NCBI GenBank assembly: GCA_902796855.1
Contig: CADBQN010000047.1
Location: forward strand, 1-33,379
DNA from: an uncultured Bacillota bacterium
Lineage (GTDB): Bacteria; Bacillota; Dehalobacteriia; UBA7702
Length of the DNA stretch: 33,379 nucleotides
Reading direction: 5' to 3'
Of the stretch, positions 1-15,760 are shown in pieces; position 1 is the first letter of the stretch; every line of letters begins with the position of its first letter. Below the pieces are notes generated by a model, which saw nothing but the letters and a program-made list of their open reading frames with translations, did not search any database and had not been told where the DNA came from. Both the position numbers and the translations under genes were made by a program.

Positions 1-597
1 CGTCTGTTCCGTCGGTGTCGGAACCGGCGTATAGACAAAGTTAAATACATTCTGGCTCGTGTCCGCCTGGAGCGTACCCGTCAGGTTATAAGACTGAGGC
101 TGGTAACCTTCGACATACAGATGCGCGACCACCGGACGGTCGCCGACGTTGCCGAAATACGTTTCACTGGCCGCCAGGGCATTGCCGTTGGCGTCAACAT
201 AATTGACGGTGTATTCCACCGGCGTCCCAAGGATGCCGTAGGATACGATGTAATCCGCGTCGCCGCTCACCTCAAAGCTGGAGAGCGTCGGCACGCCTTC
301 TTCCTGGAAGTCATGACCGGAAAGCATCATGCCGCGGACATAATATTTACTGTCGGTGACGGTGGCTTCCCGCTGAGGACTGAAGGAGATGCGGTCCCCT
401 TTTTTCAGATTATCAAAGGTCTTTACCGTCTCGCCATCGATGGTGCCGTGGGCGCCGGCGAAGATCCGCACCGTATAGGTGGTTTCATCGGCCTTCAGAT
501 CGGCACTGCCGATACAGAGCACCGCCGGAACCATCAGCAGAACGAGAGCCAGCGAAAGCAGCGCGGAAAAAGCTTTTTTCATCAGTTGACCCGTCAT
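1..597 (-). CDS. Secreted MucBP-like surface protein, C-terminus beyond left edge
   Basis: The reading frame starts at 597 and stays open to base 1, so only the N-terminal 199 residues are visible. The ATG sits nine bases after AAAGGGGG, a good ribosome-binding site overlapping the end of the upstream gene, and only three bases separate the two genes. A second in-frame ATG at 582 lacks a comparable site. Residues 6-36 form a signal peptide (MKKAF start, then a Leu/Val-rich core). Residues from about 135 (YTVNYVDANGNALA) to 185 resemble a MucBP domain, a mucin- or glycan-binding fold with the pattern YTVNYVD.nG..L, followed by a Pro/Thr stretch (VYTPVPTPTEQT) typical of a spacer before more repeats or a wall anchor. 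It is probably the last or near-last gene of the pilus/TasA-like operon. The anchor type cannot be seen. Confidence 0.8.
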   Translation of the reverse strand, partial: MTGQLMKKAFSALLSLALVLLMVPAVLCIGSADLKADETTYTVRIFAGAHGTIDGETVKTFDNLKKGDRISFSPQREATVTDSKYYVRGMMLSGHDFQEEGVPTLSSFEVSGDADYIVSYGILGTPVEYTVNYVDANGNALAASETYFGNVGDRPVVAHLYVEGYQPQSYNLTGTLQADTSQNVFNFVYTPVPTPTEQT

Positions 598-600
598 GCC

Positions 601-1353
601 TCAGGCCCCCTTTCTTTCGTCGCGGTGCCGTTTCACCTGGAAGATGGCCAGGAAGAGCAACACGAGACCGCTGACGGCGGCAATGATCACATAGGGCAGA
701 ATACTCAGATAGTCACCGGTCTGAACCGCTTTTCTCGACGGGGTGGTGTTGTCCTTGCCGGTATCGGATTCGAGTTCAACGGCAAAGTTCATTTGCAGAT
801 CCGCCAGCGTATCCTGATAGAGGTTCCCCTGGCTTTCCCCTTCCAGCGCCACAAAGAGAGTGACGACACCGCCTTCGTTTTTCGCGAAGGAATCGAGATA
901 GAAGAAGTCATCCAGGGCGTTGGTGGCTTCGTTCAGACCTTCACCGGCGTCGCTTTTTTCAGCGCCGCCGACCTGGTCACTGTCGTAGAGAACGGTTTCC
1001 TTGTTGGTCTGGGAATTTTTGTAAGTCAGTTTGTAAGAATAGGCGCCGCCTTTGTCCTTTGCCGCGGAGACACTGTCTTCCAAAGAGCGAAGGACTTTGT
1101 TGGCCATATACCAATTCGTTCGTTCGGAGTGGGTGTTTTTCACCTGCACCGTGATGGTCAGATCATCACCGGGCTGAAGGCCGGCGGCTTTATCGGTCAG
1201 CTGACCGGTAGTGAAATTGCTGACCATTTTTTCCTGAGGCGTAAAGGTGACGCTCCAATTGTCATCACCGTAGTAATGTTCCGCCGATACCTGCGTCGGC
1301 ATGGCCCAGATCAGGCAGAACAGAAGAAGAATACTGAATAATGCTTTTTTCAT
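601..1353 (-). CDS. Exported membrane-tailed protein with QTGD sorting-like motif
   Basis: A 250-residue protein with a signal peptide (residues 1-24, ending VSA), an extracellular domain and a C-terminal tail made of KAVQTGDY (about 209-216), a hydrophobic span and a basic end (KRHRDERKGA). That tail has the shape of a sortase signal, but QTGD replaces LPxTG, so it may be used by another sortase or may simply be a membrane anchor. The body (DNWSVTFTPQ, NWYMANKVLRSLED, DTLADLQMNFAVEL) recalls a conserved uncharacterised family that, from memory, occurs with signal peptidases and TasA-like proteins in clostridial operons. The ATG follows GGGAGGCGG with suitable spacing. It lies 15 bases after the upstream TasA-like gene and 3 bases before the MucBP protein. 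The function is unknown; a base or assembly subunit of the fibre is an inference. Confidence 0.85.
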   Translation of the reverse strand: MKKALFSILLLFCLIWAMPTQVSAEHYYGDDNWSVTFTPQEKMVSNFTTGQLTDKAAGLQPGDDLTITVQVKNTHSERTNWYMANKVLRSLEDSVSAAKDKGGAYSYKLTYKNSQTNKETVLYDSDQVGGAEKSDAGEGLNEATNALDDFFYLDSFAKNEGGVVTLFVALEGESQGNLYQDTLADLQMNFAVELESDTGKDNTTPSRKAVQTGDYLSILPYVIIAAVSGLVLLFLAIFQVKRHRDERKGA

Positions 1354-1368
1354 CTTGATCCGCCTCCC

Positions 1369-2160
1369 TTACTGCGCCAGCGTCATCGTTTTATTGTCGC
1401 CTTCACCGCTGGTCGTGATCGTCTTGCCCCAGGCGCTGAGGGCGGCGTCGGCGGCGTTGTGATCCTGAACGGCATCAACTTCGGCTTCGAGGACAAAGCG
1501 AACGCCGTCATAATCATAAGTCGTCGTAATCGTCTTGCCGTCGGCGCTTCTCGTCTGCGTGACCTTCGTCGCCACGCTGCCGCTGATGGAAACACTTTCC
1601 GTCAGGGCGTTTGTTTCCGCGCCGGGCAACAGCACATTGTTATAGTAGAAAACGCGCCGTTCCGCCGTGGCCGAGGAAGTATCCTCGGTCCAACCGCTGT
1701 TCGCGGCATAGCCGACGGTAATCAGATCCGGCGAAAGATCCGGCCGTTTCGCGCCTTCGGCGTCGGTCCAATATTTGCGGATGGTGATGCGTACAAACTC
1801 GTTGATCGTGCCGCTGTTTGAGGCGGCGACATATTCGGGATAGACCTTGCCGGGAACGAGAGCTTCACCATCGCCCAGCATCGTTTCGAAAAGAGCGCCG
1901 GACTGGGTGACCCAGCGGCCGTCACCGGCGCCGCTGTAATTGCGGGAGGCGATGACGCTGTAATCCGCGGCGGGATCGGTCCGTTCCAGCAGGGAAACAC
2001 CGATATCAAACATCTGCACCTCAGCGGTGTACGTGTCGGAGTAATAAGCCAGGGCGGCTCTCGCCCCGCCGACGCCGGCAAAGAGCAGCAGCGCCGCGGC
2101 GAAGACGAACATCAGGCCCGTCGTTTTTGTGGAAGTGAGGATTTTCTTCATATGGCTCAT
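1369..2160 (-). CDS. TasA/camelysin-like exported protein with SipW-type signal (longer paralogue)
   Basis: A 263-residue protein. The N-terminus (MSHMKKILTSTKTTG, then a Phe/Ala/Leu core and GGARAALAYYSDTYTAEVQ) has the SipW-cognate layout: a long hydrophobic segment, a small-residue cleavage region and an aromatic-Ser/Thr-Asp motif right after it, as in TasA (AYFSD). The rest is a beta-rich domain with YVAASNSGTINEFVRITIRKYW, like the TasA/CalY jelly-roll family, and there is no sortase motif. The family forms or supports extracellular fibres in Bacillus. GGAGGGG lies eight bases before the ATG, and the upstream paralogue's stop codon lies in the same short junction, so the two are probably translationally coupled. 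A fibre subunit is likely by family, but the sequence is divergent. Confidence 0.8.
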   Translation of the reverse strand: MSHMKKILTSTKTTGLMFVFAAALLLFAGVGGARAALAYYSDTYTAEVQMFDIGVSLLERTDPAADYSVIASRNYSGAGDGRWVTQSGALFETMLGDGEALVPGKVYPEYVAASNSGTINEFVRITIRKYWTDAEGAKRPDLSPDLITVGYAANSGWTEDTSSATAERRVFYYNNVLLPGAETNALTESVSISGSVATKVTQTRSADGKTITTTYDYDGVRFVLEAEVDAVQDHNAADAALSAWGKTITTSGEGDNKTMTLAQ

Positions 2161-2163
2161 ATC

Positions 2164-2670
2164 TTATTCCCCTCCTTCCGTTTCCACTGTCGCCAGGGAC
2201 CAATCGGCGTAAGGTTCACCGTTGTCATTATAGAGCACCGGCGCCGTTTCGTAGACAACAGCCACGTCAAAGCTGGCGTCTTCCGTGGGCACGCCGTCTC
2301 TGGGCACGTTATTGATGCTCACGACGAGGCGGTCGGTGGTTTCCCCGGCCTGCAGGATATCGCTGTAGTAATAGTAGCCGTCGGCGCCGGGACTCCATTT
2401 TTCGGAGCCCTGATACTGGAGAGGATATTGGCTCGGGCCGAAGGCTTTCACCCGGACAAAGACCGGTGTGGAGGTTTCGCTGTTTTCAATGGCCACTGTT
2501 TTTTGCCAGTCATCGAATTCTTCGGTGATGCGTGTTTCCTCTCCCAGGGTCAGCGTTTGACCGCCCCGGGCCGTGGCGTAGGTGGTGAAGTAAGAGAAGG
2601 CCGGGCCGACGGACGCGCCGAGAACGAGGAGGAACGCTGCCAGCGCCATTATCGCGTATTTCTTTTTCAT
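2164..2670 (-). CDS. TasA/camelysin-like exported protein with SipW-type signal (short paralogue)
   Basis: A 168-residue protein with an N-terminal hydrophobic segment (residues 5-26) followed by GPAFSYFTTYATA. This again matches the SipW-cognate pattern of a small residue, an aromatic pair and a Thr/Ser region. The mature part carries STPVFVRVKAFGP and ILQAGETTDRLVVSIN, similar to the short strands of TasA/camelysin relatives. No membrane tail or sortase signal is present. The ATG lies 11 bases downstream of AAGGAG. It follows the pilin-like gene by 22 bases and ends 3 bases before the longer TasA-like paralogue. The tandem pair could be major and minor subunits of a second, non-covalent fibre; this is inferred from arrangement and family only. 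Confidence 0.78.
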   Translation of the reverse strand: MKKKYAIMALAAFLLVLGASVGPAFSYFTTYATARGGQTLTLGEETRITEEFDDWQKTVAIENSETSTPVFVRVKAFGPSQYPLQYQGSEKWSPGADGYYYYSDILQAGETTDRLVVSINNVPRDGVPTEDASFDVAVVYETAPVLYNDNGEPYADWSLATVETEGGE

Positions 2671-2692
2671 AGCACTCTGTTCTCCTTATTCC

Positions 2693-3739
2693 TTATTCTT
2701 TCGGGAGGTCGTTTTCCCAATCCCAGGCACCGCGTTCCGTGGAGTAATCAAAGGAGTTGATGACGGAACCGCCCTGAATCAGGTGGTGATCATATTGGTT
2801 GGTAAAGGCGGCGGTCATCACGGTATCCGCCGAGATCACACCGGTCACCGTTTCGTCGGTGGTCAGGGTGTAGCCCGCGCCGGAATAGACTTCCGTCACC
2901 GTCACCGTGGCGCCGATGGGGATTTTGTTTTCGATGAAAGCGATTTCCACATTATCCTCAGCGGCGGAGAATTTCTTGGAGACGACGGTGCTGAAAACGT
3001 TGACCGGGCCGTTGCCGTCGCCGCGGTCGAGGACGGCGTCAACCTGAAATACGAAAGTGATATCGTTGACTTCGCCTTCGTTGGTGGCTTCGCGGTCTTC
3101 ATAGTCGTTCAGCGTCTTCACGATGCGGAGGGAGCCTTTGCGTTCTTCGCGGGTGGCTTTCAGCTGGGTGGCGGCGTCGTTGACGATGGAGACCAGCATC
3201 GGCGTGAAGGTGTATTCATACGTGGCCGAATAGGCTTTGGTCGCCGTGGCGGCGGAGCCGTCGTCCTTGGTGGCCGTCGTCACGTAATCGGCTTTTTCCG
3301 TCCGATTGCTGTTTCTGGGAACCATCAGGTACATCCCGGCGTCCAGGCCGATGGCGTTTTCACTGAAAGCGGCGGTCTGAACCGGCTGGATATCCGCGTC
3401 CTCAGCGAGGATGATCCCGGCGCACTCATTGGCGAAAGTCTCATAGGCTTTGCTGTCGTTGGAAGCGGGTTTGACCTTTTCAAAATCACTTCCGTACGTC
3501 CAGGTGCCGCCGGAAACCGTGGCGACGCGGTAAATATCAAAGACGAGTCCGGCGCCGGCAAGATCCGCGGCGTATTCCCCGCCGTTCACCGTCAGCGAAT
3601 AGGGCGGGTCATCGGCAAACGACTGCCCCGCGGGTACGAGAATGGCCGCCGCCAGAACAAAGGTAAGAACCAGCGCCAGCGTCGTATACCATTTTTTCCT
3701 GCCTTTTCGGATTCTCAATGATTTTTCATCCTTAATCAT
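2693..3739 (-). CDS. Secreted pilin-like protein without a wall anchor (Spy0128-type domain)
   Basis: About 348 residues. A basic leader and hydrophobic core ending in SFADDPP give a signal peptide. The first half contains GLVFDIYRVATVSGG, the start pattern of pilin D1 domains that the LPSTG pilin of this locus also has (YTVYKIFDAT). The second half (KGSLRIVKTLNDY, DITFVFQVDAV, ending AAFTNQYD) matches the Spy0128/Q-patch type of isopeptide-forming pilin domain. The C-terminus ends in ENDLPKE with no LPxTG, transmembrane span or positive tail. Three ATG codons occur in tandem (3745, 3742, 3739). AGGAGG ends only two bases before the first and eight before the third, so 3739 was chosen. It follows signal peptidase by about 45 bases. 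It may be an accessory subunit held by non-covalent contacts. Confidence 0.82.
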   Translation of the reverse strand: MIKDEKSLRIRKGRKKWYTTLALVLTFVLAAAILVPAGQSFADDPPYSLTVNGGEYAADLAGAGLVFDIYRVATVSGGTWTYGSDFEKVKPASNDSKAYETFANECAGIILAEDADIQPVQTAAFSENAIGLDAGMYLMVPRNSNRTEKADYVTTATKDDGSAATATKAYSATYEYTFTPMLVSIVNDAATQLKATREERKGSLRIVKTLNDYEDREATNEGEVNDITFVFQVDAVLDRGDGNGPVNVFSTVVSKKFSAAEDNVEIAFIENKIPIGATVTVTEVYSGAGYTLTTDETVTGVISADTVMTAAFTNQYDHHLIQGGSVINSFDYSTERGAWDWENDLPKE

Positions 3740-3788
3740 CATCATCCCCTCCTGCGATAACTGTTTATGCTTTACAAGTAAGAATTTT

Positions 3789-4496
3789 TTATTTGATAAA
3801 CCTGAAATGGTTTAACGGCCATACACGCAGAACCGGCTTTGCCAGGAGCCGATCCTGTGTCACGCAGCCGATGGCCGCGTTCCTGGAGTCGCCGCTGTTG
3901 GCGCGGTTGTCGCTCATCACAAAATACTGTCCTTCCGGCACCACGTAGGGAAAGATCGTGGAGACATCGCCCCGCTGTTGATCCTTGACATAGGGTTCCT
4001 CCAGGGGCACCCCGTTCACCGTGAGATTGCCTTCCTCATCGAGGTCGACGCGGTCGCCGCCGACGGCGACGCACCGTTTGACCAGAATCTTGTTGTTGAG
4101 ATAGAAGGCGAGGACATCGCCCTGATCAATGTTCCCGGCCTTGCGGCAGACGACGATGTCGCCGCTGACGAGGGTGTCGTTCATGGAATTGCCGTAAATC
4201 TGCAGCACCGGCATCCAGAAGGTGGTGATCAGGATCGCCGCCGCGGCGACGATGACCAGCGCGTAGATGGTGGTGCGGATGGTGCGGTGATAGCGGCTGC
4301 GGTATTTTTCCCGGGAGAGCTCGTTTTCGAGGTCTTCCAGCTCGGGCTGAAGCCGTTCTTTTGCCGCCGTTTCGGCGGGAGCCGCTTCTTCCGACATTTT
4401 CGGCACTTCCGGTGTTTCGTTCGTTCCGGTTATCTCTGTCGCTTCCGGCGTTTCCGCCGGTTCGAGGGCCTCTTTCTGTTTCAGATCATCCGTCAT
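3789..4496 (-). CDS. lepB: Signal peptidase I (Ser/Lys type), island copy 1
   Basis: A 235-residue membrane-bound type I signal peptidase that removes signal peptides from exported proteins. Residues 1-68 are an acidic, Pro/Glu-rich cytoplasmic extension. Residues 74-97 form one transmembrane helix. The catalytic serine is S104 in YGNSMNDTL and the general-base lysine is K140 in ILVKRCVAVGGD. Box E reads VMSDNRANSGDSRN. The lysine marks the bacterial P-type family rather than the Ser/His ER-type SipW, although two neighbouring cargoes have SipW-type signals. Its ATG overlaps the sortase stop codon in ATGA (4493-4496), implying translational coupling and a dedicated role in pilin export. It is clearly similar along its length to the second copy at 14856-15497, suggesting an old duplication. 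Confidence 0.93.
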   Translation of the reverse strand: MTDDLKQKEALEPAETPEATEITGTNETPEVPKMSEEAAPAETAAKERLQPELEDLENELSREKYRSRYHRTIRTTIYALVIVAAAAILITTFWMPVLQIYGNSMNDTLVSGDIVVCRKAGNIDQGDVLAFYLNNKILVKRCVAVGGDRVDLDEEGNLTVNGVPLEEPYVKDQQRGDVSTIFPYVVPEGQYFVMSDNRANSGDSRNAAIGCVTQDRLLAKPVLRVWPLNHFRFIK

Positions 4497-5356
4497 CGCG
4501 CGTCACCCCTTCCCCGTTTCAAATCCAGAAAGGCGCGTTTCTGGCGTCTTCTGTCGGTGGAGACGAGAAGCATGATGAGGAGCACCATCAAAATCGGCGC
4601 CGCGACCAGCGGGGCGATGATGTAGGGCTCAAAGCGCATGGCGTCGGCGGTCACGTCGGCCTCGGCCTCGTTTTCCACGCGATGCCCCCGCACCAAAAGG
4701 CGGTGGGTATTGACGCCATAGGGCGTACACGTGATCAGCGTGCAGTAATCCTCGTTGTCGTCGATTTCCAGATCCTGAAGTTCCGTCGGCAGGACGATGC
4801 GAATCTGATCGACTTCATAGGTCATGGTGCGGTCCAACACCTGCACCATAAAGCGGTCACCGACTTCCAGCTGGTCGATATCGGAAAAGAGCTTTGCCGA
4901 GGGCAGGCCGCGGTGGCCCGAAAGCTGCGAGTGGGTGCCGATGCCGCCGACGGGCAGGGAACTCCCGGCGATGTGACCAATGGCGATCTGCAGAACGGCT
5001 TCGTCGGTGCCGTGGTAGAGGGGGTAGGAAACATGGATCTTGTTGATATCGATGTAGCCCATGATCCCGGTGCCCGTGACATCCAATATGCTGTTATATT
5101 CGGCTTCTTCCGCGTCGGACATGATGTAGCGGTTCGGTTTGGCGCGGAGGCGGACGTTATAGGCTTCCGCTTCGGCCCACATGCGGTCGATCTCTTCTTT
5201 ATCCATTTCCGAGACCTGTTCCACGTAGCTGGCGATGGCGCGGGTCTGGTGGAAGGAGTTCCACCAATCGCTGACTTTTGGATAAGCCAGAACGCAGAGA
5301 CCGATCACCATGATGCCGATGAGGATGAAGTTGGTGATGTTCTTTTTCTTTTTCAT
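4493..5356 (-). CDS. srtC: Class C (pilus-polymerising) sortase
   Basis: A 287-residue transpeptidase that joins pilin subunits through LPxTG cleavage and lysine attachment on the outer membrane face. Residues 9-25 form an N-terminal transmembrane helix and residues 246-268 a C-terminal one; the double anchor is typical of class C. The catalytic residues are H148 (LSGHRG), C210 (TLITCTPYG) and R219 (NTHRLLVRG), and the TCTPYGxNTHRLLVRG block is diagnostic of class C. The usual DP(W/F/Y) lid triad is not obvious in residues 60-95, so the lid may be atypical. Only a weak purine-rich site (AGAAGAA) precedes the start. It is coupled to signal peptidase by a 4-base overlap and separated from the major pilin by a 255-base gap containing a strong hairpin. 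Confidence 0.95.
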   Translation of the reverse strand: MKKKKNITNFILIGIMVIGLCVLAYPKVSDWWNSFHQTRAIASYVEQVSEMDKEEIDRMWAEAEAYNVRLRAKPNRYIMSDAEEAEYNSILDVTGTGIMGYIDINKIHVSYPLYHGTDEAVLQIAIGHIAGSSLPVGGIGTHSQLSGHRGLPSAKLFSDIDQLEVGDRFMVQVLDRTMTYEVDQIRIVLPTELQDLEIDDNEDYCTLITCTPYGVNTHRLLVRGHRVENEAEADVTADAMRFEPYIIAPLVAAPILMVLLIMLLVSTDRRRQKRAFLDLKRGRGDAR

Positions 5357-5436
5357 AAGATCAAATAGATTCTTCTGTCGTGTTGGGATTCATCCTTTTC
5401 CCACACCGCTTTTCATCAAAGGAATCGGAATTCCCT

Positions 5437-5468
5437 GATCTGACGTATTTATATTATCGGATCTGACG
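5437..5468. repeat. Pair of 9-base direct repeats
   Basis: GATCTGACG occurs at 5437-5445 and 5460-5468, 23 bases apart start to start (about two helical turns), on either side of an AT-rich stretch. The spacing would suit a DNA-binding protein, but no known operator was recognised. Confidence 0.35.
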
Positions 5469-5527
5469 GAAATCATCTTTTCATCCTCAAACAGAGGGTG
5501 GAAAGATCATGTTCGCTTTTTTTGATA

Positions 5528-5573
5528 ATTCCGTGTTTCCCGGCGCCTCAAAGGAGGCGCCGGAACACGGAAT
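5528..5573 (-). terminator. Strong hairpin after the major pilin gene, no U-tract
   Basis: The left arm (5528-5549) and right arm (5554-5573) pair over about 20 bases with two small bulges around a four-base loop. On the minus strand the stem is followed by AATTATC and a run of A, not T, so it is not a standard intrinsic terminator. Its place, just after the pilin stop and before the sortase, suggests a stability or partial-termination element that lets the pilin be made in excess of the enzyme. Confidence 0.55.
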
Positions 5574-5611
5574 CATGTTACTTCAGAATAGCTTTTTTAA
5601 ATTTGTTTCAA

Positions 5612-7174
5612 TTAGTTCTGATGCATTCTTCTGCGGGAGACCAGAACCACACCGGCACCGAGAACGAGAACCGCACCGACGATGTAGAAGATCGTGGTAC
5701 CGATACCACCGGTGGAGGGAAGTTCAGTGCCCTGCTGGTTCACAACTTCAACACCACCAGAAGCGTAGGTATCATTTTCAGTCGTCGTAGTGGTGAAAGT
5801 CGCGTCGTTGTTAGCATTGTTGATAGTTACTGCAACGGGATTGGCCAGGAGATTGTAGCTGTCGGGAGCTTTGGTTTCTTTCAGATAATACGTACCATTA
5901 CCCAAGCCAATGATTTCGGGGGTACCGGCTTCAATCGTAGCAGCGGTGAAGCCACTGGCAGCTTTTTCAGCAGCCGTCGCAACACGATACTGACCATCCG
6001 CGACCTTAACAAGAGCGATTTCGTTAGTGCACGCCTGTTCCTGATAGAGCTTGAATTCAGCCCCGGTCAGAACTTTCTTTTCGTTGTTATCCTTTACCAA
6101 CTGGAACTGATAAACGTAAACCTTAGGTTCATCCGGCGGGGTAGTATTGGGTTTACCATCACTCTTATGACCGTAATCAAGTGTACCGGTGTTTTTGTTG
6201 CCGTCACCAGCAATAACCGCTTTTTCATTAACAATCGCCGAATAGGTGATGGTAATAGTGGTATCAGCAGTGATGCTGTCCAAATAGGTCTTGGTAAATG
6301 TGATTGTGATATTGTCTTCTGTACCGTTAGTCGCATTATTCGCAAACTTGGTCAGAGTGTAATCAGTACCCTTTGTCAGAGTAGTGCTTCCAGCTTTAAC
6401 TACAGGCTCGGTAGTGGTCAGGCTCAGACCAGCACTCAGAATATCGTGATAAACATAACTGTCAGCACCCTTTTTTGCATTAATGGTAACCGTATAATTC
6501 ACGGTGTCACCGACATTAGCAGTCGCAGATTCACTGTTTTCGTTATCGGCACCGGTTTCATGGTTGCCACCGTTGGCAGAAGTCACACTGGCGATATCTT
6601 TGTCCAAAGTAGGCATTGTATTCTTATCATTAACGGATGCACTCGGGTTGGTGCTGTCGATTGTTACAACCGTACCGGAGGTAGTGGTGATGTAGAAATA
6701 GCCATAACTGCCAACATTAACCGTCTTCGACTGACTCTTACCGGTAATAGATACGGTACCGACGGTGGTCTTACCATTATAAGCCGCCAACGCCGCAATC
6801 ATTCCTTCACTGAGATCGGTATCAGTGGTGTTAATAGCATAATCATCGGTTTTCGCGGCACGTGTATAATAACGAACATTGCCCTGTGCATCGGCTTCGA
6901 ACTTCGAAAGTTCATCGGTTGCTTCAATTTTGGTACCAGCAGCAGCCTTATAGCTGATACCGGCACTTGTACCGTCACTCGTCGCGTCAAAGATCTTGTA
7001 TACAGTGTAGGTGAATTCGTCAGTTGCCTGCGCACTATCGGGTGTCGTAATGGTAATGGATTTCGCTGTACCCGCAGTGACTTCAGACAGATCAGCCGCG
7101 AAAGCGGTAGAGCCGATTGCCAATACCATCGCTACAGCAAGAAGTACGGCTAAAATTCTTTTTGTGTGTTTCAT
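5612..7174 (-). CDS. LPSTG-anchored major pilin (SpaA/FimA-type backbone)
   Basis: A 520-residue exported shaft subunit. The start at 7174 was preferred over an in-frame TTG at 7261 because AAAGGA lies seven bases upstream and a typical signal peptide follows (MKHTKRILAV to TAFAAD). The N-terminal D1 domain has FTYTVYKIFDAT. A D2-type isopeptide domain follows (about 205-350: MPTLDKDIASV, ANVGDTVNYTVTIN, YVYHDILSAGL). A CnaB domain comes next (FQLVKDNNEKKVLTGAEFKLY to YYLKETKAPDSY), whose KETKAP supplies the usual E-box glutamate. The sorting signal is LPSTG at 485-489 with a hydrophobic tail and RRRMHQN. Upstream lies a 709-base structured leader region with its own promoter; downstream is a hairpin and the class C sortase. 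The coding DNA looks more AT-rich than its neighbours, as often seen in exchanged surface genes. Confidence 0.92.
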   Translation of the reverse strand: MKHTKRILAVLLAVAMVLAIGSTAFAADLSEVTAGTAKSITITTPDSAQATDEFTYTVYKIFDATSDGTSAGISYKAAAGTKIEATDELSKFEADAQGNVRYYTRAAKTDDYAINTTDTDLSEGMIAALAAYNGKTTVGTVSITGKSQSKTVNVGSYGYFYITTTSGTVVTIDSTNPSASVNDKNTMPTLDKDIASVTSANGGNHETGADNENSESATANVGDTVNYTVTINAKKGADSYVYHDILSAGLSLTTTEPVVKAGSTTLTKGTDYTLTKFANNATNGTEDNITITFTKTYLDSITADTTITITYSAIVNEKAVIAGDGNKNTGTLDYGHKSDGKPNTTPPDEPKVYVYQFQLVKDNNEKKVLTGAEFKLYQEQACTNEIALVKVADGQYRVATAAEKAASGFTAATIEAGTPEIIGLGNGTYYLKETKAPDSYNLLANPVAVTINNANNDATFTTTTTENDTYASGGVEVVNQQGTELPSTGGIGTTIFYIVGAVLVLGAGVVLVSRRRMHQN

Positions 7175-7254
7175 AGTTTTTTCCTTTCTCGGGGGTTTTT
7201 CCGCCTGGCGGATCCCTTCCCCTGCTTTTGTGATTTCTTTGAAGACGCTCTTTT

Positions 7255-7280
7255 CGGACAACGGCGCTCACCGTTGTCCG
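7255..7280 (-). promoter_or_regulatory. Perfect 10-bp stem-loop in the pilin leader
   Basis: CGGACAACGG (7255-7264) pairs perfectly with CCGTTGTCCG (7271-7280) around a six-base loop, 80 bases upstream of the pilin ATG. A second perfect stem, ATCCGC with GCGGAT, lies at 7314-7329. Neither has a U-tract. They may stabilise the abundant pilin mRNA or form part of an unrecognised leader fold. Confidence 0.6.
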
Positions 7281-7568
7281 CGGAGGCCGTTCCGTCTTCT
7301 TTTAAGTTGTCTCATCCGCTGACGCGGATCGGAAGGTCGCCCCCCCGCGGGGAAGAATCCTCTCCCCCTTTGTTTTCACTTTGTGTCACCTTTAAGCTAC
7401 CGCTGAAGTTAATTTTTTACTCAGTTCGGTTTTTTCTCGCTTCCCCCTTCCGTTCCAACCAACGCGGGCTAATTTTCTCTGTCGCGGAGAGCCCTTTCCC
7501 AAAGGGTTTTGGCGTATCCGCGGAATCATGAAAAATGTAAACAACGGATCATTCATCCTTACGACACA

Positions 7569-7597
7569 ATTTTAGCACACGCCACGTCAACAAAACC
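7569..7597 (-). promoter_or_regulatory. Candidate extended -10 promoter for the major pilin
   Basis: On the minus strand TGCTAAAAT gives an extended -10 (hexamer 7569-7574), and GGTTTT (7592-7597) lies 17 bases upstream as a poor -35. A-rich DNA further upstream could act as an UP element. A TTGACG nearby is only 10 bases from the -10, too close to serve with it. Transcription would begin near 7562. Confidence 0.45.
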
Positions 7598-7647
7598 GTC
7601 ATTTTTGGGATTTTTTTTCGCCGGAACGTATGATTTTTTGCTTTTTT

Positions 7648-7718
7648 CCTGTTTCAGCCATTCAGCCGCCGTCCGCGGGGAAGCGCGGCAGCGTCGGCGG
7701 CGAAAGCGCCGAAACAGG
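7648..7718 (-). other. Long compound hairpin downstream of the tip adhesin gene
   Basis: CCTGTTTC (7648-7655) pairs with GAAACAGG (7711-7718). Inside, GCCGCCG (7665-7671) pairs with CGGCGGC (7695-7701), and innermost CCGCG (7673-7677) pairs with CGCGG (7684-7688). On the minus strand it is followed by A-runs, so it is not a standard U-tract terminator. It is the last of the hairpins that follow the adhesin stop codon. Confidence 0.55.
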
Positions 7719-7747
7719 TTTCATCGGCCCATAGGCTCAAAGGCCGC

Positions 7748-7833: not shown

Positions 7834-7883
7834 ATATTCTGTTCTTCACAATAGGCCGTCACCTCCTTTAAGGCAGGCGCTTT

Positions 7884-10800
7884 TCAGCGTTGTTCGCGTT
7901 TTTTATATCGAAGGGCAAGCGCTGTCCCGGCAAAGCCGATGAGCAGCAGCCCCAGCGCGCTGTAAATCATGGTTCCGATCCCCCCGGTGTTGGGAAGCTC
8001 AATACCGGCAGAGTTGGGAACTTCGATGGTAAACACTGTTACATACACATCATTTATTTTTTCCGTTCCCGAAGTAACGCTATAGGCGGTTCCCGTGGCG
8101 GATACTTCACCTGACGATACTGTAAACACAATATTTTCCGCCATCATGTTGTAACCGGCAGGTGCATCTGTTTCGGTTAAAGTGTAAGCGTTTTTGTTAA
8201 CGGGTACTTCAATGTAAATTGAATCATTGCATACCAGATAGCCATTGGCGTTTGTCCCAAGTTCTGTGTACGAAAAGTCTGTTCCCTGCGGCCCTGTTAA
8301 GGTGAACTCCGCACCCTCAAGAGCCTTCTTTGGAGTTGTACCTGTTTCATACTTGAAGACTTTAATCAGCTGTTTGCTTCTGGTGTTGGTGAATACCACT
8401 TCCGCAACACCGTTGGATACCGTTGTATCATTCACTGTGAATGTCGCGTTTGTGCCGTTTTGCGCGGCGGCACCGTTCACTGAGTAAGTTGTGGCAAAGA
8501 AGCTGTCCGGAGTTTCAGCCACGGTAATCTCTGTCCCATACGGAATGTTCGCGTAAGTTACGGAATGATTTTCGGCTTCCGTATTACCCACAAGCTGAGC
8601 ATCAACCGAAGATTCCGAGACACCTGTGACAGTGAAATTAAAGGGCTTATTCTGGTCTCCTTCCAGGCCGACAACATTCTTTGTGACTTTAACCGTCGCT
8701 GTTTTGCGGGTATTTTGAACGGTAATGGTATAAATCATTCCGTCTGTGCCGGACTCACCCGAGATCGCACTTTGGTCCGCCAGCGCATTTCCGGACGAAT
8801 CAACCAACCGGGCTTTCAGGCTTCCGTCAGTATCCTTATATACCCGGAAGTAAACGTCTTCTCCCGCTTCATAATTTGCGGGTGCGGCTGTTTCCGAAAG
8901 CTTATACAGCCCTAAGCCAAGTCCTCCCAGATCAATCGGGTTTTCAAGAATAACGTTTGATTCTTCTTGAGTATCTTCGTCAACTACAGTTTCCGTGCCG
9001 CCAGGCTTGATTTCAGTCTGTACATCATCCCAGGTTTCATTGGTCTCGTTATACCGCTGCAGTTTGAACGCCGAACCGCTCAATACACTTCCGTTTTCAT
9101 CAACTTTTTTCAGCTTCACATCGATTGTGTTCCACTTATTGGCAACGGTCACTTTGTAAGCGGATTCGGAAGAATCAATCGTTCCGGTTATACTCTGCCC
9201 TGACGGAGTTCCTGTTACCTCCGTCGTCCAGTCGTTGTTGATGCTCTTAGGCTTTCCGTTTTCTTCGTCAGTCACGTTTCCATCATCGTCATAATAGATA
9301 ATGTTTCCTTCTCCATCGGTTTCATATTCTATAACACCGCTTAAGTCATAGCCTCTTTCACCGGCAATGCTGACAAAGCTATAGCCATCGGCAGGCATTG
9401 TTTCAGACTCAGCAACCGTGTAGGTCGTTCCGGTCGGCAGATTCAGGAAACGAAGGCTGTAGCCATTCTGCATATCGACCGCTATAGAAGTGCCAGACGG
9501 TACGCAGAAGTAGCCATTGAAGTTTTCTGTTGGCTTGGTTTCAACTACCGTATCGTCATTCAGCTGATAGCGGATCCCTTCTGCCGATACCGCATCGGCA
9601 TCGGTAACCTGCGCATTATGGACCGTATCCCAAATGGAGATCCAGACCCAGGCATCACCGTTAACATCCTCCGGATCCGCGCCCTCGGCACGAGGGTTAT
9701 TTACCGTCATCGTGAATCCAAATTGATCGCCCTCGGGGACATTTGAACCGGTTACATTCTTTACAACATCCAGATAACTCCGGCGGTGGTTCGTAGCGTT
9801 CAGAGAAGCAGCGCCTTCATCAACGACATAGTATTTCACTTCACCGTCAATGGTCAGCTTGTAATATGTGTCAACACCCACAGTTGCCGTGGCGTTTGTT
9901 TCCGCCGCATTTTTAATTGCATCCGGCGCTTCAGCCGCGTCAATCAATTTGAGTGTCGTAATGTGGTTGTTGATCAGCATCGGACGAATCGTATCCGCCT
10001 CGATTTCCCAGTAGTACCCGACAGAAGCTTCCTCTGAGAAGGAATAGTCGTGACCGGTTGTCTTTAATTCAATCTCGCCCGTATCTCCGTCGACGGTCAT
10101 AATGCCGTAAGAAATCCAGGAGGCTGCCGACCAATCATTATCCGCATTCAGCGTTACATAGTTCCTCTCTGCCCCATCACGAGTTACGAATAGTTTGATC
10201 GTCTGTGAAATCCAGTTTGTGCGGCTATCGAGGGTATTGTTCCAGTTCTTGCTGACAGCCATTTCCTCCGCGGCACTGACCGGCTGGGGATCAGGATTCA
10301 CGTAATCGATTGTCTGTGAACCATTCTCTGTTCTGGAATCCGTATAAGTTAAGGTCGCCGTTGTATTGGTCTTCAGCTTATAATCTTCTGACAGGTATTT
10401 TTGAATTTCCGGATCCAAATCCGCATACTGAACGTATCCGTTCTTTAAATCCACGATTAAATCCAAAGTCCACTGACTCGGATAGCAGTCAAATGTCACG
10501 GTATAGGTCACACCGTCCAGCAGTGTTCCCAATCCGTTCAGATTCCAATCTACCGCGCTGTTTAAGCTGCTGAACGATGCAGCAGGCGGAGTGAAATTGT
10601 AAAAAGCAGTTGCCTGTGTCCACTCCAGCGTGAGCGTGTTCCCGGCGTTGACCGTTCCCTTATAAGTCGCGCTCTGACCATTACCCCAGCTTAACGTCAC
10701 GTTATCTCCACTGACAGAAGCGGTGTAAGCAACATCATCACCCGAAATTTTATCCGGCATGGTAAACGTATAAGTCCCGCCCGTTCCGGCGCTCACCGGA

Positions 10801-13800
10801 ATCGTCAGCCAGTACTGATAGGAGCTTTCATCCACTTCCAGCATGTGAGCAACACTTGTGCTGGTATTGACATTGCTTGTTGTGCCGTCAGTAATGGACA
10901 CGGCACCGACACCCAGCGTTTGAACAATCTTCTGGAAGATTTCGTTAATTGCCGATGTCAGAGCAGCTGTACTTGCAGCATTATAATAACCGTCCGTATC
11001 AAACGTGGTTCCACGTATATTGTTAGGAGGTTCGCTGTTATTGTAAGCATAATACATCAGTGAAGCAAGCCAGTCAGCTTCCTCACCGTAAGCATATATT
11101 CCAAAGAACTCCCCACCACTTTCGGTTGTCGAAGTATAAACAGCTCTTGCTTCGTCCCTCGCTGCTTCATAACACGGTTCCACATCTCTGTTCGAAGAAT
11201 TGTTGCGATTGGTTGGAGCCCCGTCAGTTATGAAAACAACGTACGTCGGATTATCATTTGTAATGGCATCTACAGCATCATTAGCTGCATCCAGAGCTGC
11301 TTCCCAGTTAGTACCGGATCCATACAAAGCATTATTATGAGTTGTCCCTGAGCTATTAAAATATCGTGTGATATCGTTTTCTGTTTGAGTCCATGTTACA
11401 GGAAGGTTGTTACGTGGTAAGGAATGGGCAGAAGCATCAAACGTAACTACCGCTGCGTTAATATTGTCTTTTGCTTCATTCTGATATCCAAACAGAGCAT
11501 GCGTAAAATCATATAACGTTTTTTCCGCGACATCAGCACGCCATAAGCTACTGTAGCGTTTTCCATTATATTCATTATACCTATATCTCCCGCCATACGA
11601 GTTTCCACTTCGGGTATATACAGTTCCAGTGTAAGTATCGTTATCTAATTGTTGGTACGTACCATTATTGGTTCGATAATATAACGTTGTATATGTTGTC
11701 GAGTATGTCGAAGTCGGAGCTCCATATCGCCCGGTTTCACTCGGCGCATGATAAATTGTCATGGAACTTGAAACATCATACACAATCAATACGTTTACAT
11801 TTGACGCTTCAGAAGTCGTATCTGCATCGCCAGTAACATTCAATCCAATTGTATAAGTCCCATCCAGATTGTCTCTCAGTGTTTTGGAATGAGCAGGTGA
11901 TCCATCCGAATTCAGTGCTTTCAGTACCGGAGCTTCTTGTGCTGCGGCGGCAATCTTCTGTGCGTTTAATGTTTTGACAGAAGAAACGATAGAATCATCC
12001 TGATTGGCTTCTTTTGCTTCATACACATCAAAATTCACAAAGTCATAATCTGAAAATTCAGGTGTGATTGCTACTGATTCAGTGATTGTGTTTTCGTATT
12101 TCTCATATGTTGAATCAAGAACCTGTGCGTTATCGTCCGAATAGTGGATTACATTAAAATGGCTTTCCATTTCCGGAGCTTCATATAAGCCTGCATATTC
12201 TCCCAGCCCCTCCGGATCTGTATTAACACTGTCCACAGTGTATTCCGTCGTTATCGCATCTGTGAATTCAACCTTAATCTCCACCGGAGCTTTGGGCTCG
12301 AATTCTTCTCCATCAACCATAATGCTGATATTTAAGAAACGGGCATCACTGATGAAGTAGTTTCCATATTCATTACTTAAAGTTTTCGCCAATCTGGCAG
12401 AGCGATCACCCCAGCCTTCATCACCTTCACTAATTTCATTGACTTCAAGCGTCGCAGTTTCAGGAATCTGTGCTTTTTCATCGTAGACAACAGTAACCTT
12501 TAAGGTCTCCCCGTCCGCCGTCAGATAATCCGCCGTGATCGTCTTCATTTCCGCGACGGCGTATACCGAGAACCCGTCGGTCAGGAATTCCGCGCCGTCA
12601 ATGGCGTTTTCTTCCTCGGTATGGAGGGAGACATTGTTCATGACGCGGACGCCGCCTTCGTCGGTGAAGTGCAGGAGGCGCACGGCGTTTTCGTCGGCGA
12701 CGGTCATCGGGACGAACTCAATATTGACTTTCACCGGGGATGCGGGTTCCAGGGGATTGCCCGCGGCGTCGGTGATGGTGATATCAAAGAACTTGGCGGC
12801 GGTCAGCTGCTGACCCTCGGCGAGGGACGCGGCGGCCTGATCCATATAAGTCTGATAGGCCGCGTCGTCCGCGGTGATTTCACGGACGGTGAGACCGGCG
12901 TCTTCGGGGATGCCGCTTTCCGCGTCATAGAACACGGAGACTTTATAGGTATCGCCTTCGTCGGTGATGACGTAGGTTTCCAGCTGAGCGTCGGTGACTG
13001 CAACGCGGATCGTTTCGCCGTCGTTCAGCTCGATGGTGAGCTGTTCCGTGGAGGTGAAGGGTTGCAGGCTTTCGAGGAGCCAATCTTTATCCTCAAAGAT
13101 GCCCCGCGCCGTCGTTTCGGGGGAGACTTTGATCAGTTCGGGGTCGCTGAAGCGGACGTCGGCCACTTCTTCCCGAACGAAGGTATCGGCTTCCAGCGCG
13201 GTTTTGATGCCCAGCTCCGTCAAGAGCGCTTTCAGGCTGACGGTGCTGCCGCCCTCGATGCTGTAAGCGTAATCACTGCCGTCAATGGTGTAGCTGAAGT
13301 CCACGGTATAGACGATGCCGTAGACGGAGAAGCTTTCGGCCTCGAAGCTGTAGGCGGCGTCTCCTTCGCTGACATCGGTCGCCATGATTTCAGCGGGTTC
13401 CGCCTCGGGCAGATGAACGGCGCTCACCGCCGCGTCCGCCGGAACGGATTCGGGATCTGTATATTCGATGGTGACGCTGACCGCGGCGGCGGGTTCGATT
13501 TTTGTATCTCCGTCCATGAAGGAGATATCGAAGAACCGGCCGTCGGTGACGTCGCTTTCGGCGGCAAAGGCGTTCCGCGCCTCGGCGAGATACGCGTTCC
13601 GCGCCGCTTCGTCGGTGATTTCGGCAACGGAGAGCGTAACGCCTTCGGGGAGGGCCGCGTCGGCGCCGTAGGTCACCGTTACGGTATAGTCGGCGCCCTC
13701 ATAGGAGAGGACCGACGGGATATCGGAATAGACGACGGGATGCTCGGTTTCTGCGGTTTCTGCGGTTTCTGCGGTTTCTGCGGTTTCGGCGGGTTCGGCT

Positions 13801-14714
13801 TTGGGAGCGGCGGAAGTCTGACCGCCGCTGAGCTTATCCTCAAAGCGGCTGTCGCCGCCGGCGGAAGAACCGTCCCCTTCTGCAACGGCGCAGTAACCGA
13901 GAATCTTATCGCTGGTTTTATAATAGAACGTTTTCTGAACGGCGTTGTTTCTGTCGCCCTCGATGACAAAGATCTTTTCCTTATCGGTTTTATAGACGAC
14001 GCCCATGTGGTCCGCGTCATCGCTTTGGAGGAAGACGATGTCGCCGGCGGCGGCGCTGTAATCTTTGCTTTGAAGTTTCTTTTCGCCTTGGAGCGCTTTC
14101 ATCCATTTGGCGGTGGATTCCGTATTCACGGCGACTTTTCCGTCGAGACCGGCGTAATGGAGAGAAAACGCGACAAAGGAGGTACTCCAGTTTTTATAAC
14201 CGTCGCCCTCCCAGGCGCCGTACCGGTTCCAGCCGCGGATCGTTTTGCCGTCGGCTTCCACCTGATAGTTTTCGGCGCTTTCACGATAGGAAACCTGGCT
14301 TTCGGCCACCGAGATCAGTTTCCCGGCGTCCGAACCGCTCAGATCCCGCGGAAGGGTGCTTTCCCAGGCGGCCTGTGTTTCCACATCGGCCTCGGGGTTG
14401 GAAAAGCAGGCGAGTGTGTGCTTGTGCTCATCCTTTCCGCAGACGATCTTTGTCTCATAGCAGGCTTCGCCGTGGCGGTGCGCTTCGGATTCTTCCAGGC
14501 CGCAGATGAGGGTCGTTTCATAGCAGCTTTCGCTGTGCGCGTGCTCATCCAGGCCGCAGTAAGTCCGACCGCTTTCGGCCAGCGCCGGCAGTGTCAGCTG
14601 TGAGACCGTGGCGAATACGAACAGCATCGCCATGACCACCGCGACAAGCCGGCGGCGTTCCGCTTTAGACTTCGCGTCCAGAAATTCCGTTGTTTTCTTG
14701 TTTATATGTTTCAT
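7884..14714 (-). CDS. Giant LPNTG-anchored VWA adhesin (probable pilus tip)
   Basis: A 2276-residue surface protein. The ATG at 14714 has GGAGGTG six bases upstream; an upstream in-frame ATG lacks this. A long signal peptide ends near A46. Residues 53-103 carry three Cys/His motifs (CGLDEHAH...CY and two more) that look metal-binding. Residues 130-275 resemble a CHAP/NlpC-type amidase, but NWSTSF has S177 where the cysteine is expected, so it is probably inactive. Three related beta modules follow (about 315-490, 600-725, 725-905; SFSVYGIVYTVDF is typical). A VWA domain (about 975-1250) has a full MIDAS: DVSSS, SGTNW and ITDGAP. Several CnaB/SpaA domains lead to LPNTG at 2240-2244, a hydrophobic span and KKREQR. 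The VWA plus CnaB plan matches RrgA/EbpA-type tip adhesins. The gene follows signal peptidase by 141 bases. Confidence 0.93.
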   Translation of the reverse strand: MKHINKKTTEFLDAKSKAERRRLVAVVMAMLFVFATVSQLTLPALAESGRTYCGLDEHAHSESCYETTLICGLEESEAHRHGEACYETKIVCGKDEHKHTLACFSNPEADVETQAAWESTLPRDLSGSDAGKLISVAESQVSYRESAENYQVEADGKTIRGWNRYGAWEGDGYKNWSTSFVAFSLHYAGLDGKVAVNTESTAKWMKALQGEKKLQSKDYSAAAGDIVFLQSDDADHMGVVYKTDKEKIFVIEGDRNNAVQKTFYYKTSDKILGYCAVAEGDGSSAGGDSRFEDKLSGGQTSAAPKAEPAETAETAETAETAETEHPVVYSDIPSVLSYEGADYTVTVTYGADAALPEGVTLSVAEITDEAARNAYLAEARNAFAAESDVTDGRFFDISFMDGDTKIEPAAAVSVTIEYTDPESVPADAAVSAVHLPEAEPAEIMATDVSEGDAAYSFEAESFSVYGIVYTVDFSYTIDGSDYAYSIEGGSTVSLKALLTELGIKTALEADTFVREEVADVRFSDPELIKVSPETTARGIFEDKDWLLESLQPFTSTEQLTIELNDGETIRVAVTDAQLETYVITDEGDTYKVSVFYDAESGIPEDAGLTVREITADDAAYQTYMDQAAASLAEGQQLTAAKFFDITITDAAGNPLEPASPVKVNIEFVPMTVADENAVRLLHFTDEGGVRVMNNVSLHTEEENAIDGAEFLTDGFSVYAVAEMKTITADYLTADGETLKVTVVYDEKAQIPETATLEVNEISEGDEGWGDRSARLAKTLSNEYGNYFISDARFLNISIMVDGEEFEPKAPVEIKVEFTDAITTEYTVDSVNTDPEGLGEYAGLYEAPEMESHFNVIHYSDDNAQVLDSTYEKYENTITESVAITPEFSDYDFVNFDVYEAKEANQDDSIVSSVKTLNAQKIAAAAQEAPVLKALNSDGSPAHSKTLRDNLDGTYTIGLNVTGDADTTSEASNVNVLIVYDVSSSMTIYHAPSETGRYGAPTSTYSTTYTTLYYRTNNGTYQQLDNDTYTGTVYTRSGNSYGGRYRYNEYNGKRYSSLWRADVAEKTLYDFTHALFGYQNEAKDNINAAVVTFDASAHSLPRNNLPVTWTQTENDITRYFNSSGTTHNNALYGSGTNWEAALDAANDAVDAITNDNPTYVVFITDGAPTNRNNSSNRDVEPCYEAARDEARAVYTSTTESGGEFFGIYAYGEEADWLASLMYYAYNNSEPPNNIRGTTFDTDGYYNAASTAALTSAINEIFQKIVQTLGVGAVSITDGTTSNVNTSTSVAHMLEVDESSYQYWLTIPVSAGTGGTYTFTMPDKISGDDVAYTASVSGDNVTLSWGNGQSATYKGTVNAGNTLTLEWTQATAFYNFTPPAASFSSLNSAVDWNLNGLGTLLDGVTYTVTFDCYPSQWTLDLIVDLKNGYVQYADLDPEIQKYLSEDYKLKTNTTATLTYTDSRTENGSQTIDYVNPDPQPVSAAEEMAVSKNWNNTLDSRTNWISQTIKLFVTRDGAERNYVTLNADNDWSAASWISYGIMTVDGDTGEIELKTTGHDYSFSEEASVGYYWEIEADTIRPMLINNHITTLKLIDAAEAPDAIKNAAETNATATVGVDTYYKLTIDGEVKYYVVDEGAASLNATNHRRSYLDVVKNVTGSNVPEGDQFGFTMTVNNPRAEGADPEDVNGDAWVWISIWDTVHNAQVTDADAVSAEGIRYQLNDDTVVETKPTENFNGYFCVPSGTSIAVDMQNGYSLRFLNLPTGTTYTVAESETMPADGYSFVSIAGERGYDLSGVIEYETDGEGNIIYYDDDGNVTDEENGKPKSINNDWTTEVTGTPSGQSITGTIDSSESAYKVTVANKWNTIDVKLKKVDENGSVLSGSAFKLQRYNETNETWDDVQTEIKPGGTETVVDEDTQEESNVILENPIDLGGLGLGLYKLSETAAPANYEAGEDVYFRVYKDTDGSLKARLVDSSGNALADQSAISGESGTDGMIYTITVQNTRKTATVKVTKNVVGLEGDQNKPFNFTVTGVSESSVDAQLVGNTEAENHSVTYANIPYGTEITVAETPDSFFATTYSVNGAAAQNGTNATFTVNDTTVSNGVAEVVFTNTRSKQLIKVFKYETGTTPKKALEGAEFTLTGPQGTDFSYTELGTNANGYLVCNDSIYIEVPVNKNAYTLTETDAPAGYNMMAENIVFTVSSGEVSATGTAYSVTSGTEKINDVYVTVFTIEVPNSAGIELPNTGGIGTMIYSALGLLLIGFAGTALALRYKKREQR
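13747..13791 (-). repeat. In-frame 9-base tandem repeat in the adhesin gene
   Basis: Four exact copies of GTTTCTGCG (13747-13782) are followed by a degenerate fifth (13783-13791). They encode repeated Ala-Glu-Thr between the CHAP-like domain and the first beta module. The unit is a multiple of three, so slippage would change linker length without breaking the frame. Confidence 0.85.
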
Positions 14715-14855
14715 CTGAACACCTCCTCCCACACACATGCCAGGACACGCGTATGGGTCGTGGTTCATGTTGGTTCACTAATAGGTATTATGTTCCATGG
14801 TTATTTCCTGCTTTCACGCTGATGTTATCGTTCTTGTTATGCTTTCTGTCCGTTT
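14715..14855. other. Leader between signal peptidase 2 and the tip adhesin
   Basis: A 141-base spacer containing the adhesin ribosome-binding site and a six-codon reading frame (MEHNTY, ATG at about 14794) on the minus strand. No convincing promoter or terminator was found, so co-transcription with the signal peptidase is likely. Confidence 0.4.
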
Positions 14856-15497
14856 TTACGAGCCGCCGAGTCCGCCGGGCGGCAGAACACGGAACAGCAG
14901 TTTGCCGACGATCTGTTCATCGGCGACACATCCGACGGATGTGTTTCTGGAGTCGATGGAGACGCTGCGGTGGTCTCCCATGACGAAAATCCGGTTTTCC
15001 GGAACCTGATAAGGAAGTCTGATATCGGTCTTCCCCAGAGACTTTTCCTCAACGTAGGGCTCATCAAGGAGCTCGCCGTTGACGTATACGTTGCCTTCCT
15101 CGTCGATGTCCACCCAGTCGCCGGGGTTCGCGATCACGCGCTTGACAAGAATCTGATTGTTGTAATAGAAAGCGATGACATCGCCGGTTTGGAACCGCGC
15201 GCCCTTGGAGGCGACAACGACATTCCCCTCGTGCAGAACGGGGGTCATGGAATTGCCGTGGATGCGCAGGACCGGCAGCCAGAGCGTAAAAATGAGAATG
15301 GCGATGGCGACCGCCGTGGCCAGAGCGAAGACCGTGCTCTGAATGACGCGGCGGCGGCGCTGCCGCTCCTTCACGATGGCGAGCTCTTCCCGAAGCTTCG
15401 GCAGATCGGGCCGGAGTTTTTCCTCTTCCGACGCTTCCGTATCTTTCGGGAGTTCCGTTCCTTCCATATACTCAGACTCGCGTTTTTCGTCCGTCAT
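14856..15497 (-). CDS. lepB: Signal peptidase I (Ser/Lys type), island copy 2
   Basis: A 213-residue type I signal peptidase. An acidic cytoplasmic N-terminus (1-50, with a basic QRRRRV stop) leads to one transmembrane helix at 54-76. S83 in HGNSMTP is the nucleophile and K119 in ILVKRVIANPGD the general base; box E is VMGDHRSVSIDSRN. It is shorter at the N-terminus than the copy at 3789-4496 but matches it closely from the helix onward (for example DIDEEGNVYVNG against DLDEEGNLTVNG). Its ATG overlaps the stop of the small coiled-coil gene in ATGA, so translation is probably coupled. Standing directly before the giant adhesin, it may process that protein or the pilins; the two copies may divide cargo between them. 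Confidence 0.93.
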   Translation of the reverse strand: MTDEKRESEYMEGTELPKDTEASEEEKLRPDLPKLREELAIVKERQRRRRVIQSTVFALATAVAIAILIFTLWLPVLRIHGNSMTPVLHEGNVVVASKGARFQTGDVIAFYYNNQILVKRVIANPGDWVDIDEEGNVYVNGELLDEPYVEEKSLGKTDIRLPYQVPENRIFVMGDHRSVSIDSRNTSVGCVADEQIVGKLLFRVLPPGGLGGS

Positions 15498-15760
15498 TGA
15501 GAATCAGCCCTTTCCGATACAAGCGATTCCAGTTTTTGGATGACCGCTTCCAGAGAGGCAACGCGATCCAGATCGGCCCGGCAGCGCGCCAATTCCTCTT
15601 TGAGGGTTTCGTTCTCCCTTTTCAGCGTTTCGGCTTCCCTTGTCTGATCCACCAGAAGTTCCAGAAGCTCCACTCTTGTCAGCTTGTGAATGGGATCGTC
15701 ACCGGCACGCTTACCGCCGAAGATGTTGGCAAAGCCCTTTTTTGTTTCTTTTTCCGGCAT
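15494..15760 (-). CDS. Small coiled-coil protein at the head of the pilus island
   Basis: An 88-residue cytoplasmic protein with no signal peptide or membrane span. The start MPEKETKKGF at 15760 follows AAGGAAGGGGAG closely; an in-frame extension to 15895 is mostly leader-like and has no site. Residues 24-80 (HKLTRVELLELLVDQ, then TLKRENETLKEELARCR and LEAVIQKLESLVSE) form a heptad-rich coiled coil. From memory, similar KLTR.ELLE.L proteins are common beside signal peptidase and pilin genes in clostridia, but I know of no assigned role. It overlaps signal peptidase copy 2 by four bases and seems to be the first gene of the operon. A scaffold or regulator of export is possible but unproven. 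Confidence 0.8.
   Translation of the reverse strand: MPEKETKKGFANIFGGKRAGDDPIHKLTRVELLELLVDQTREAETLKRENETLKEELARCRADLDRVASLEAVIQKLESLVSERADSQ

Follow-up and report, generated by a model that had tools for sequence, protein, structure and literature searches.

A sortase pilus locus coupled to a TasA-like module: a candidate composite surface appendage in an uncultured Bacillota bacterium

The locus described here probably encodes a single composite surface appendage, in which a sortase pilus is mounted on a TasA-like module in place of a wall anchor. We favour this reading with some reserve. Sortase pili and TasA-type fibres are usually treated as unrelated filament-building routes. One system replacing the anchor of the other in a conserved locus is a testable route to a mixed covalent and non-covalent fibre. 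If true, it would explain why some gut bacteria retain a pilus without a recognisable wall-anchored base pilin. It would also give a role to SipW-linked proteins that are widespread but unannotated in gut Lachnospiraceae, among them a protein with a V(K/Q)TGD tail.

The window, that is, the whole stretch of 33,379 nucleotides that was analysed, is an entire contig (C47) of a 2.11-Mb genome in 84 contigs. Hence the MucBP gene is cut at base 1. A sequence-only reading had described one same-strand run of pilus and TasA-like genes; all the genes it named were found, on the minus strand and about where it placed them. In the order of transcription the run reads cc, sip1, VWA adhesin, pilin, srtC, sip2, pil2, TasA1, TasA2, QTGD and MucBP:

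15494..15760, minus strand: small coiled-coil protein (cc), about 88 aa, which leads the run; no family above cut-off
14856..15497, minus strand: sip1, P-type signal peptidase I (TIGR02227, 122.9 bits)
7884..14714, minus strand: VWA-type tip adhesin of 2,276 residues with SpaA/Cna-B repeats and LPNTG (domain and motif searches)
5612..7174, minus strand: major pilin of the SpaH/EbpB family with LPSTG (NF033902, 144.4 bits, cut-off 95; GramPos_pilinBB)
5525..5576, minus strand: very stable hairpin in the interval between pilin and srtC (z = -5.87)
4493..5356, minus strand: SrtC, class C sortase, pilus polymerase (NF033745, 268.9 bits, cut-off 160)
3789..4496, minus strand: sip2, second P-type signal peptidase (TIGR02227, 123.2 bits)
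2693..3745, minus strand: Pil2, unanchored pilin-like protein with a base-pilin-like N-terminal domain, DUF5979 (Cna-B-like) and a conserved tail
2164..2670, minus strand: TasA1 (tas168), TasA/BsaA-like, 168 aa, SipW-type N-terminus SYFTTYATARGG (TIGR04090, 29.6 bits, sub-threshold)
1369..2160, minus strand: TasA2 (tas263), TasA/BsaA-like, 260 aa, homologue of TasA1 (hhalign; AlphaFold beta-sandwich)
601..1353, minus strand: QTGD-tailed membrane or wall protein with a beta-domain (weak TasA resemblance; family alignment)
1..597, minus strand: MucBP-containing protein, partial, broken at the contig end

The genes had been called overlapping or near-touching, and the measured spacing bears this out for the pair cc-sip1 and for the group that runs from srtC to mucbp. 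The pairs cc/sip1 and srtC/sip2 overlap by 4 bp, and the gaps from sip2 to mucbp are, in order, 43, 22, 3-12, 15 and 3 nt. The hairpin between pilin and srtC is strong, is followed by no U-run and is not of a terminator type. It is possibly an attenuator that holds the pilin above the downstream genes, or an mRNA stabiliser. An Rfam scan of the window gave zero matches. Beyond a block of housekeeping genes lies a second large LPNTG adhesin of the VWA-protein type (28726-33378, minus strand), cut by the contig end. It may be part of another pilus locus.

The window contains a class C sortase and a shaft pilin that has LPXTG as well as pilin domains, two marks of a SpaA-type sortase pilus. Two proteins of the run carry LPXTG anchors, the VWA adhesin and the major pilin. 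SrtC is 69-75% identical to homologues from Lachnospiraceae and Eubacterium. The proposed VWA tip adhesin has its LPXTG motif and a MIDAS-like DVSSS motif, but its VWA domain scores 21 bits against a Pfam cut-off of 27. At about residues 155-275 the same protein has an N-terminal CHAP/TIGR02594-like domain. This domain may be non-catalytic because the cysteine position of its WCxxF motif appears to be a serine (NWSTSF). The genome has only two sortases, one of class C and one of class B; no class A sortase was found in it. The class B gene lies on another contig (C83; L010:9423-11290), where it adjoins a gene for a PQTGD-tailed repeat protein near ethanolamine-utilisation microcompartment genes.

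The gene that would link the two halves of the locus is pil2. In the window, Pil2 has a conserved K196, a DUF5979 domain with a K210/E285/N316 isopeptide triad and a conserved C-terminal tail. No copy in a 28-row alignment has an LPXTG motif or a C-terminal membrane segment. A PDB sequence search with Pil2 matched pilin backbones through the DUF5979 region. The W and K of the pilin motif are retained in 89% and 95% of 57 Pil2 proteins; in the window copy the W region is deleted and the K is kept.

Sortase loci without the TasA-like cassette offer a direct comparison. There, srtC often precedes a gene for a base pilin with LPxTGxLWWPV at its end, and a second small sortase usually comes next. 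The Pil2 N-terminal domain is matched by 22 of 25 of these base pilins (best E 1e-29), and 95% of base pilins have an equivalent of K196 in a pilin-motif-like setting. Where the base pilins have their LPxTGxLWWPV anchor and then the second sortase, Pil2 has its tail and then the TasA-like genes. In the 86 loci that have 4 kb or more of downstream sequence, the LPxTGxLWWPV anchor set occurs in 0 of 53 with the cassette, versus 18 of 33 without it (Fisher 7e-10, kinship ignored). In known pili the base pilin stops elongation, and a housekeeping sortase attaches it to the wall (PMC8244301). The best reading of these sequence patterns is that Pil2 would be a base pilin whose target has shifted from the wall to the TasA-like module.

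Naming this module is less straightforward. TasA1 and TasA2 score 29.6 and 25.5 bits against the BsaA family TIGR04090, for which the cut-off is 60. Neither matches a Pfam family or the TasA model NF046066, and no protein of the window matches the SipW-signal model TIGR04088. By curated thresholds the small proteins of the window are thus outside TasA and BsaA. TasA1 and TasA2 are homologues of one another (hhalign probability 96.8), and TasA1 has 27 orthologues. The original description had them as two TasA-like proteins with SipW signals; the signal and TasA models do not recognise them.

The AlphaFold model of TasA2 is a high-confidence beta-sandwich, in which the mature N-terminus is conserved yet unplaced. 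A Foldseek search of the PDB with TasA2 returned only generic beta-sandwiches and no significant TasA match. By fold, the beta-domain of the QTGD protein weakly matched TasA (E about 0.006) and an archaeal thread filament (E about 0.03). We aligned 24 further members of its family, most of which terminate in V(K/Q)TGD and a membrane segment. When the PDB was searched by sequence with profiles of the TasA-like and QTGD proteins, no TasA match emerged. Profile and fold searches thus support the label "TasA-like" only weakly; judged by context, TasA1, TasA2 and the QTGD protein are part of a TasA-like module.

Part of this context is the signal peptidase. The two signal peptidases of the window had been described as serving the whole run. 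For the TasA-like proteins this does not hold: both Peptidase_S26 proteins are P-type (TIGR02227), so we rejected them as SipW enzymes. The genome has two ER-type (SipW-like) enzymes, both on contigs other than C47. The position of sip1 upstream of the tip adhesin is the usual one, and many relatives have it in the same place. Among the loci examined, no relative has a P-type peptidase immediately before pil2. We therefore also rejected sip2 as a regular cassette member; its insertion between srtC and pil2 is unique to the window among these loci.

The cassette does include a SipW-type enzyme. In relatives, a SipW gene is near 48 of 56 cassettes. In the genome studied here, one SipW gene lies at the end of contig C35, directly after a reading frame with a repeat-rich linker, a DxxDxxxPLA motif and a membrane tail, which resembles the C-termini of cassette MucBP proteins (both at L009:9557-10582). 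The best matches of this SipW are cassette SipWs (55-57% identity). Because C35 offers both a MucBP-like C-terminus and a cassette-type SipW, it most likely continues the window, and the break would lie in a GTT-coding repeat. No exact sequence overlap between C47 and C35 was found, so we infer the junction from protein homology. MucBP and SipW would thus be adjacent in this genome, across the contig break.

How general is the arrangement? With the class C sortase as query, a search of 84,980 species genomes gave 80 loci. The order srtC-pil2-tas168-tas263-qtgd-mucbp occurs in 27 of them, or in 27 of the 69 with room downstream. The hosts are metagenome-assembled genomes (MAGs) labelled Lachnospiraceae, Eubacterium, Solobacterium, Erysipelotrichaceae, Oscillospiraceae, Coriobacteriaceae and Atopobiaceae. 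The gene order is therefore common to two phyla, Bacillota and Actinomycetota, and to many gut and rumen bacteria. The genes are tightly packed in relatives as well, with median gaps of 21 nt between srtC and pil2 and of -4 to 14 nt between later genes. Pairwise distances of srtC and of the cassette proteins are correlated (r = 0.60-0.64; the compared genomes are mostly MAGs, and the linkage statistics ignore kinship).

A search anchored on TasA2 approaches the linkage from the other side. It covered 299 genomes of one family, 28 of which have TasA2, plus further copies in genomes already known as carriers. Among the high-scoring TasA2 loci with enough upstream sequence, 27 of 32 have srtC within 6 kb upstream, a fraction that is favoured by the search profile, which was built from srtC-linked loci. 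Among weaker TasA2 relatives srtC is upstream in 0 of 14. The sequence-only reading would have given way if the cassette were always apart from the sortase genes; the cassette is often beside them, and sortase-less cassettes do occur. Taken together, the comparative data show that sortase pilus and TasA-like module are coupled at the genomic level.

Could two horizontally mobile surface loci have become neighbours by chance? Within the own phylum the island is indeed an isolated find. In a sample of 398 genomes the TasA2 profile matched no genome other than the source of the window, and single-protein phylum searches with tas263 and qtgd likewise matched this genome only. Since SrtC is also 69-75% identical to the Lachnospiraceae and Eubacterium loci, the island was likely acquired horizontally. 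A chance neighbourhood is contradicted, however, by an order that is conserved across two phyla and by the counts from the sortase and TasA anchors, and we consider it extremely improbable.

Beside these loci, more distant ones of the BsaA family (L037-L039, L042, L043) combine a TasA/BsaA-like protein with a small sortase and sometimes with a gene like that of the QTGD protein. They point to a wider TasA-plus-sortase theme.

The cassettes without a sortase are informative about Pil2. In six of them (L138, L142, L165, L171, L172, L175) one large adhesin precedes tas168. The C-terminus of these adhesins is the DUF5979/Cna-B-like domain of Pil2 with its tail. Two of them (L142 and L172) contain a VWA domain, and the L172 adhesin is 41% identical to the tip adhesin of the window over about 730 aa. 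The isopeptide triad and the tail asparagine are kept in 7 of 7 long proteins; the W and K of the pilin motif are absent from 6 of the 7. The seventh, L154, is a partial reading frame in which the base-pilin domain is present. In three loci (L152, L154, L163) Pil2 is present but no SrtC is visible. Because triad and tail are kept and W and K are lost in the sortase-less long proteins, the Pil2-type C-terminal domain goes with the TasA-like module, and the lysine of the N-terminal domain goes with the sortase.

Alternatively, the sortase pilus and a TasA-like matrix fibre could be co-regulated for adhesion or biofilm formation and yet be physically separate. The mere existence of sortase-less cassettes speaks for this, as does the strong hairpin between pilin and srtC. 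In Clostridium perfringens, where a sortase gene lies beside sipW-bsaA, deletion of srtB left BsaA polymers unaffected, so that BsaA polymerises independently of the neighbouring sortase (PMC7395162). However, separate fibres leave three observations unexplained: Pil2 is a base-pilin homologue without a wall anchor, loci lack the LPxTG anchor and second sortase exactly where they have the cassette, and a Pil2 domain ends the sortase-less adhesins. We regard separate fibres as unlikely, though as the most serious competitor of a composite appendage.

For the composite appendage we propose the following assembly. SrtC would build a covalent pilus with the VWA protein at the tip and a shaft of LPSTG pilin. 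The pilus would end on Pil2, in this model a base pilin with K196 as the presumed linking lysine and without a sorting signal. The C-terminal Cna-B-like domain of Pil2 and its tail would dock onto the TasA1/TasA2 module, after the cassette SipW has cut the signal peptides of both proteins. The QTGD protein would probably be held in the membrane, or be attached to the wall by the class B sortase. The TasA module, the QTGD protein and the MucBP protein would thus replace the LPxTG base anchor and the second sortase.

These steps differ in standing. Gene order and linkage, the homology of Pil2 to base pilins, the exclusion of the anchor, the reuse of the Pil2 C-terminal domain and the associations with SipW and class B sortase emerge as patterns from the comparison of sequences. 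The contact between Pil2 and the TasA-like proteins, donor-strand-type assembly, the chemistry of K196 and wall anchoring by SrtB are what we infer from them. The shared locus had been taken to mean a mixed or coordinated fibre. Order, spacing, correlated divergence, anchor swap and domain fusion favour this idea, but the physical mixed fibre is what these patterns would predict. Weighing against it are the weak TasA-like identity, the loss of the motif W from the window copy of Pil2, the loci with Pil2 but no visible SrtC, and the sortase-independent polymers of C. perfringens BsaA, the closest case that has been studied.

TasA proteins polymerise via donor strands (PMC10151520), and in the predicted model the conserved, unplaced N-terminus of TasA2 fits such an assembly. 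The same N-terminus is compatible with a different role. TasA1, TasA2 and the QTGD protein could be assembly factors like TapA or CapP, which are known to assist TasA fibres (PMC10151520, PMC13082335), and could hold Pil2 on a short platform near the membrane without any fibre. Nearly all loci have two single-copy TasA-like genes and one gene for a membrane-tailed beta-domain protein, which speaks for such a platform. The sequence data accommodate the platform and the fibre version alike; we give the platform a small chance, below that of separate fibres.

How the QTGD protein is held bears on the composite appendage too. A class B sortase match was found in 28 of 28 cassette genomes, in five of them just after the cassette. 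Because class B is present in every cassette genome examined and adjoins the cassette in these five, this sortase may have the V(K/Q)TGD protein as its substrate. However, SrtB of C. difficile left an NVQTG peptide uncleaved in vitro (PMC4155245), which makes anchoring of AVQTG by SrtB doubtful. The QTGD protein may instead be retained in the membrane.

The locus has parts of three known systems. It resembles SpaA-type pili, such as lactobacillar SpaCBA, in having a class C sortase, an LPXTG shaft, a VWA-type tip and, beside the sortase, a base-pilin-like protein with a putative linking lysine (PMC8244301). Unlike in these pili, its base pilin lacks a Pro-rich LPxTG tail and is followed by a TasA-like module, the locus has no second sortase, and no class A sortase was found in the genome. 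The sipW-bsaABCRSD genes with srtB of C. perfringens likewise place SipW and BsaA/TasA-like proteins near a sortase gene, but no pilus sortase, pilin or Pil2 is reported for that locus (PMC7395162), and the window proteins fall under the BsaA family cut-off. Finally, tapA-sipW-tasA of Bacillus subtilis and TasA/CalY/CapP of B. cereus share a SipW-type peptidase, beta-sandwich proteins and a conserved mature N-terminus with the cassette (PMC10151520, PMC13082335), and B. cereus also has two TasA paralogues. TasA fibres of both species are described as sortase-independent, explicitly so for B. cereus TasA/CalY/CapP (PMC13082335), and neither PMC10151520 nor PMC13082335 describes a sortase pilus, Pil2 or a QTGD/KTGD protein with them. 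In the open-access literature searched, we found no paper that joins a sortase pilus to a SipW/TasA-like module.

A broader version of the proposal would extend the composite appendage across gut Bacillota and some Coriobacteria: a covalent sortase pilus, mounted via a re-targeted base pilin on a non-covalent, donor-strand-type TasA-like stalk and interchangeable with single-chain VWA adhesins. We give this version an even chance.

In some cassettes (L088, L091, L109, L128, L118) the gene after sipW encodes either a class B sortase or a protein that resembles a lipoprotein, and next comes a gene for an apparent type II secretion/Tad F-like membrane protein.
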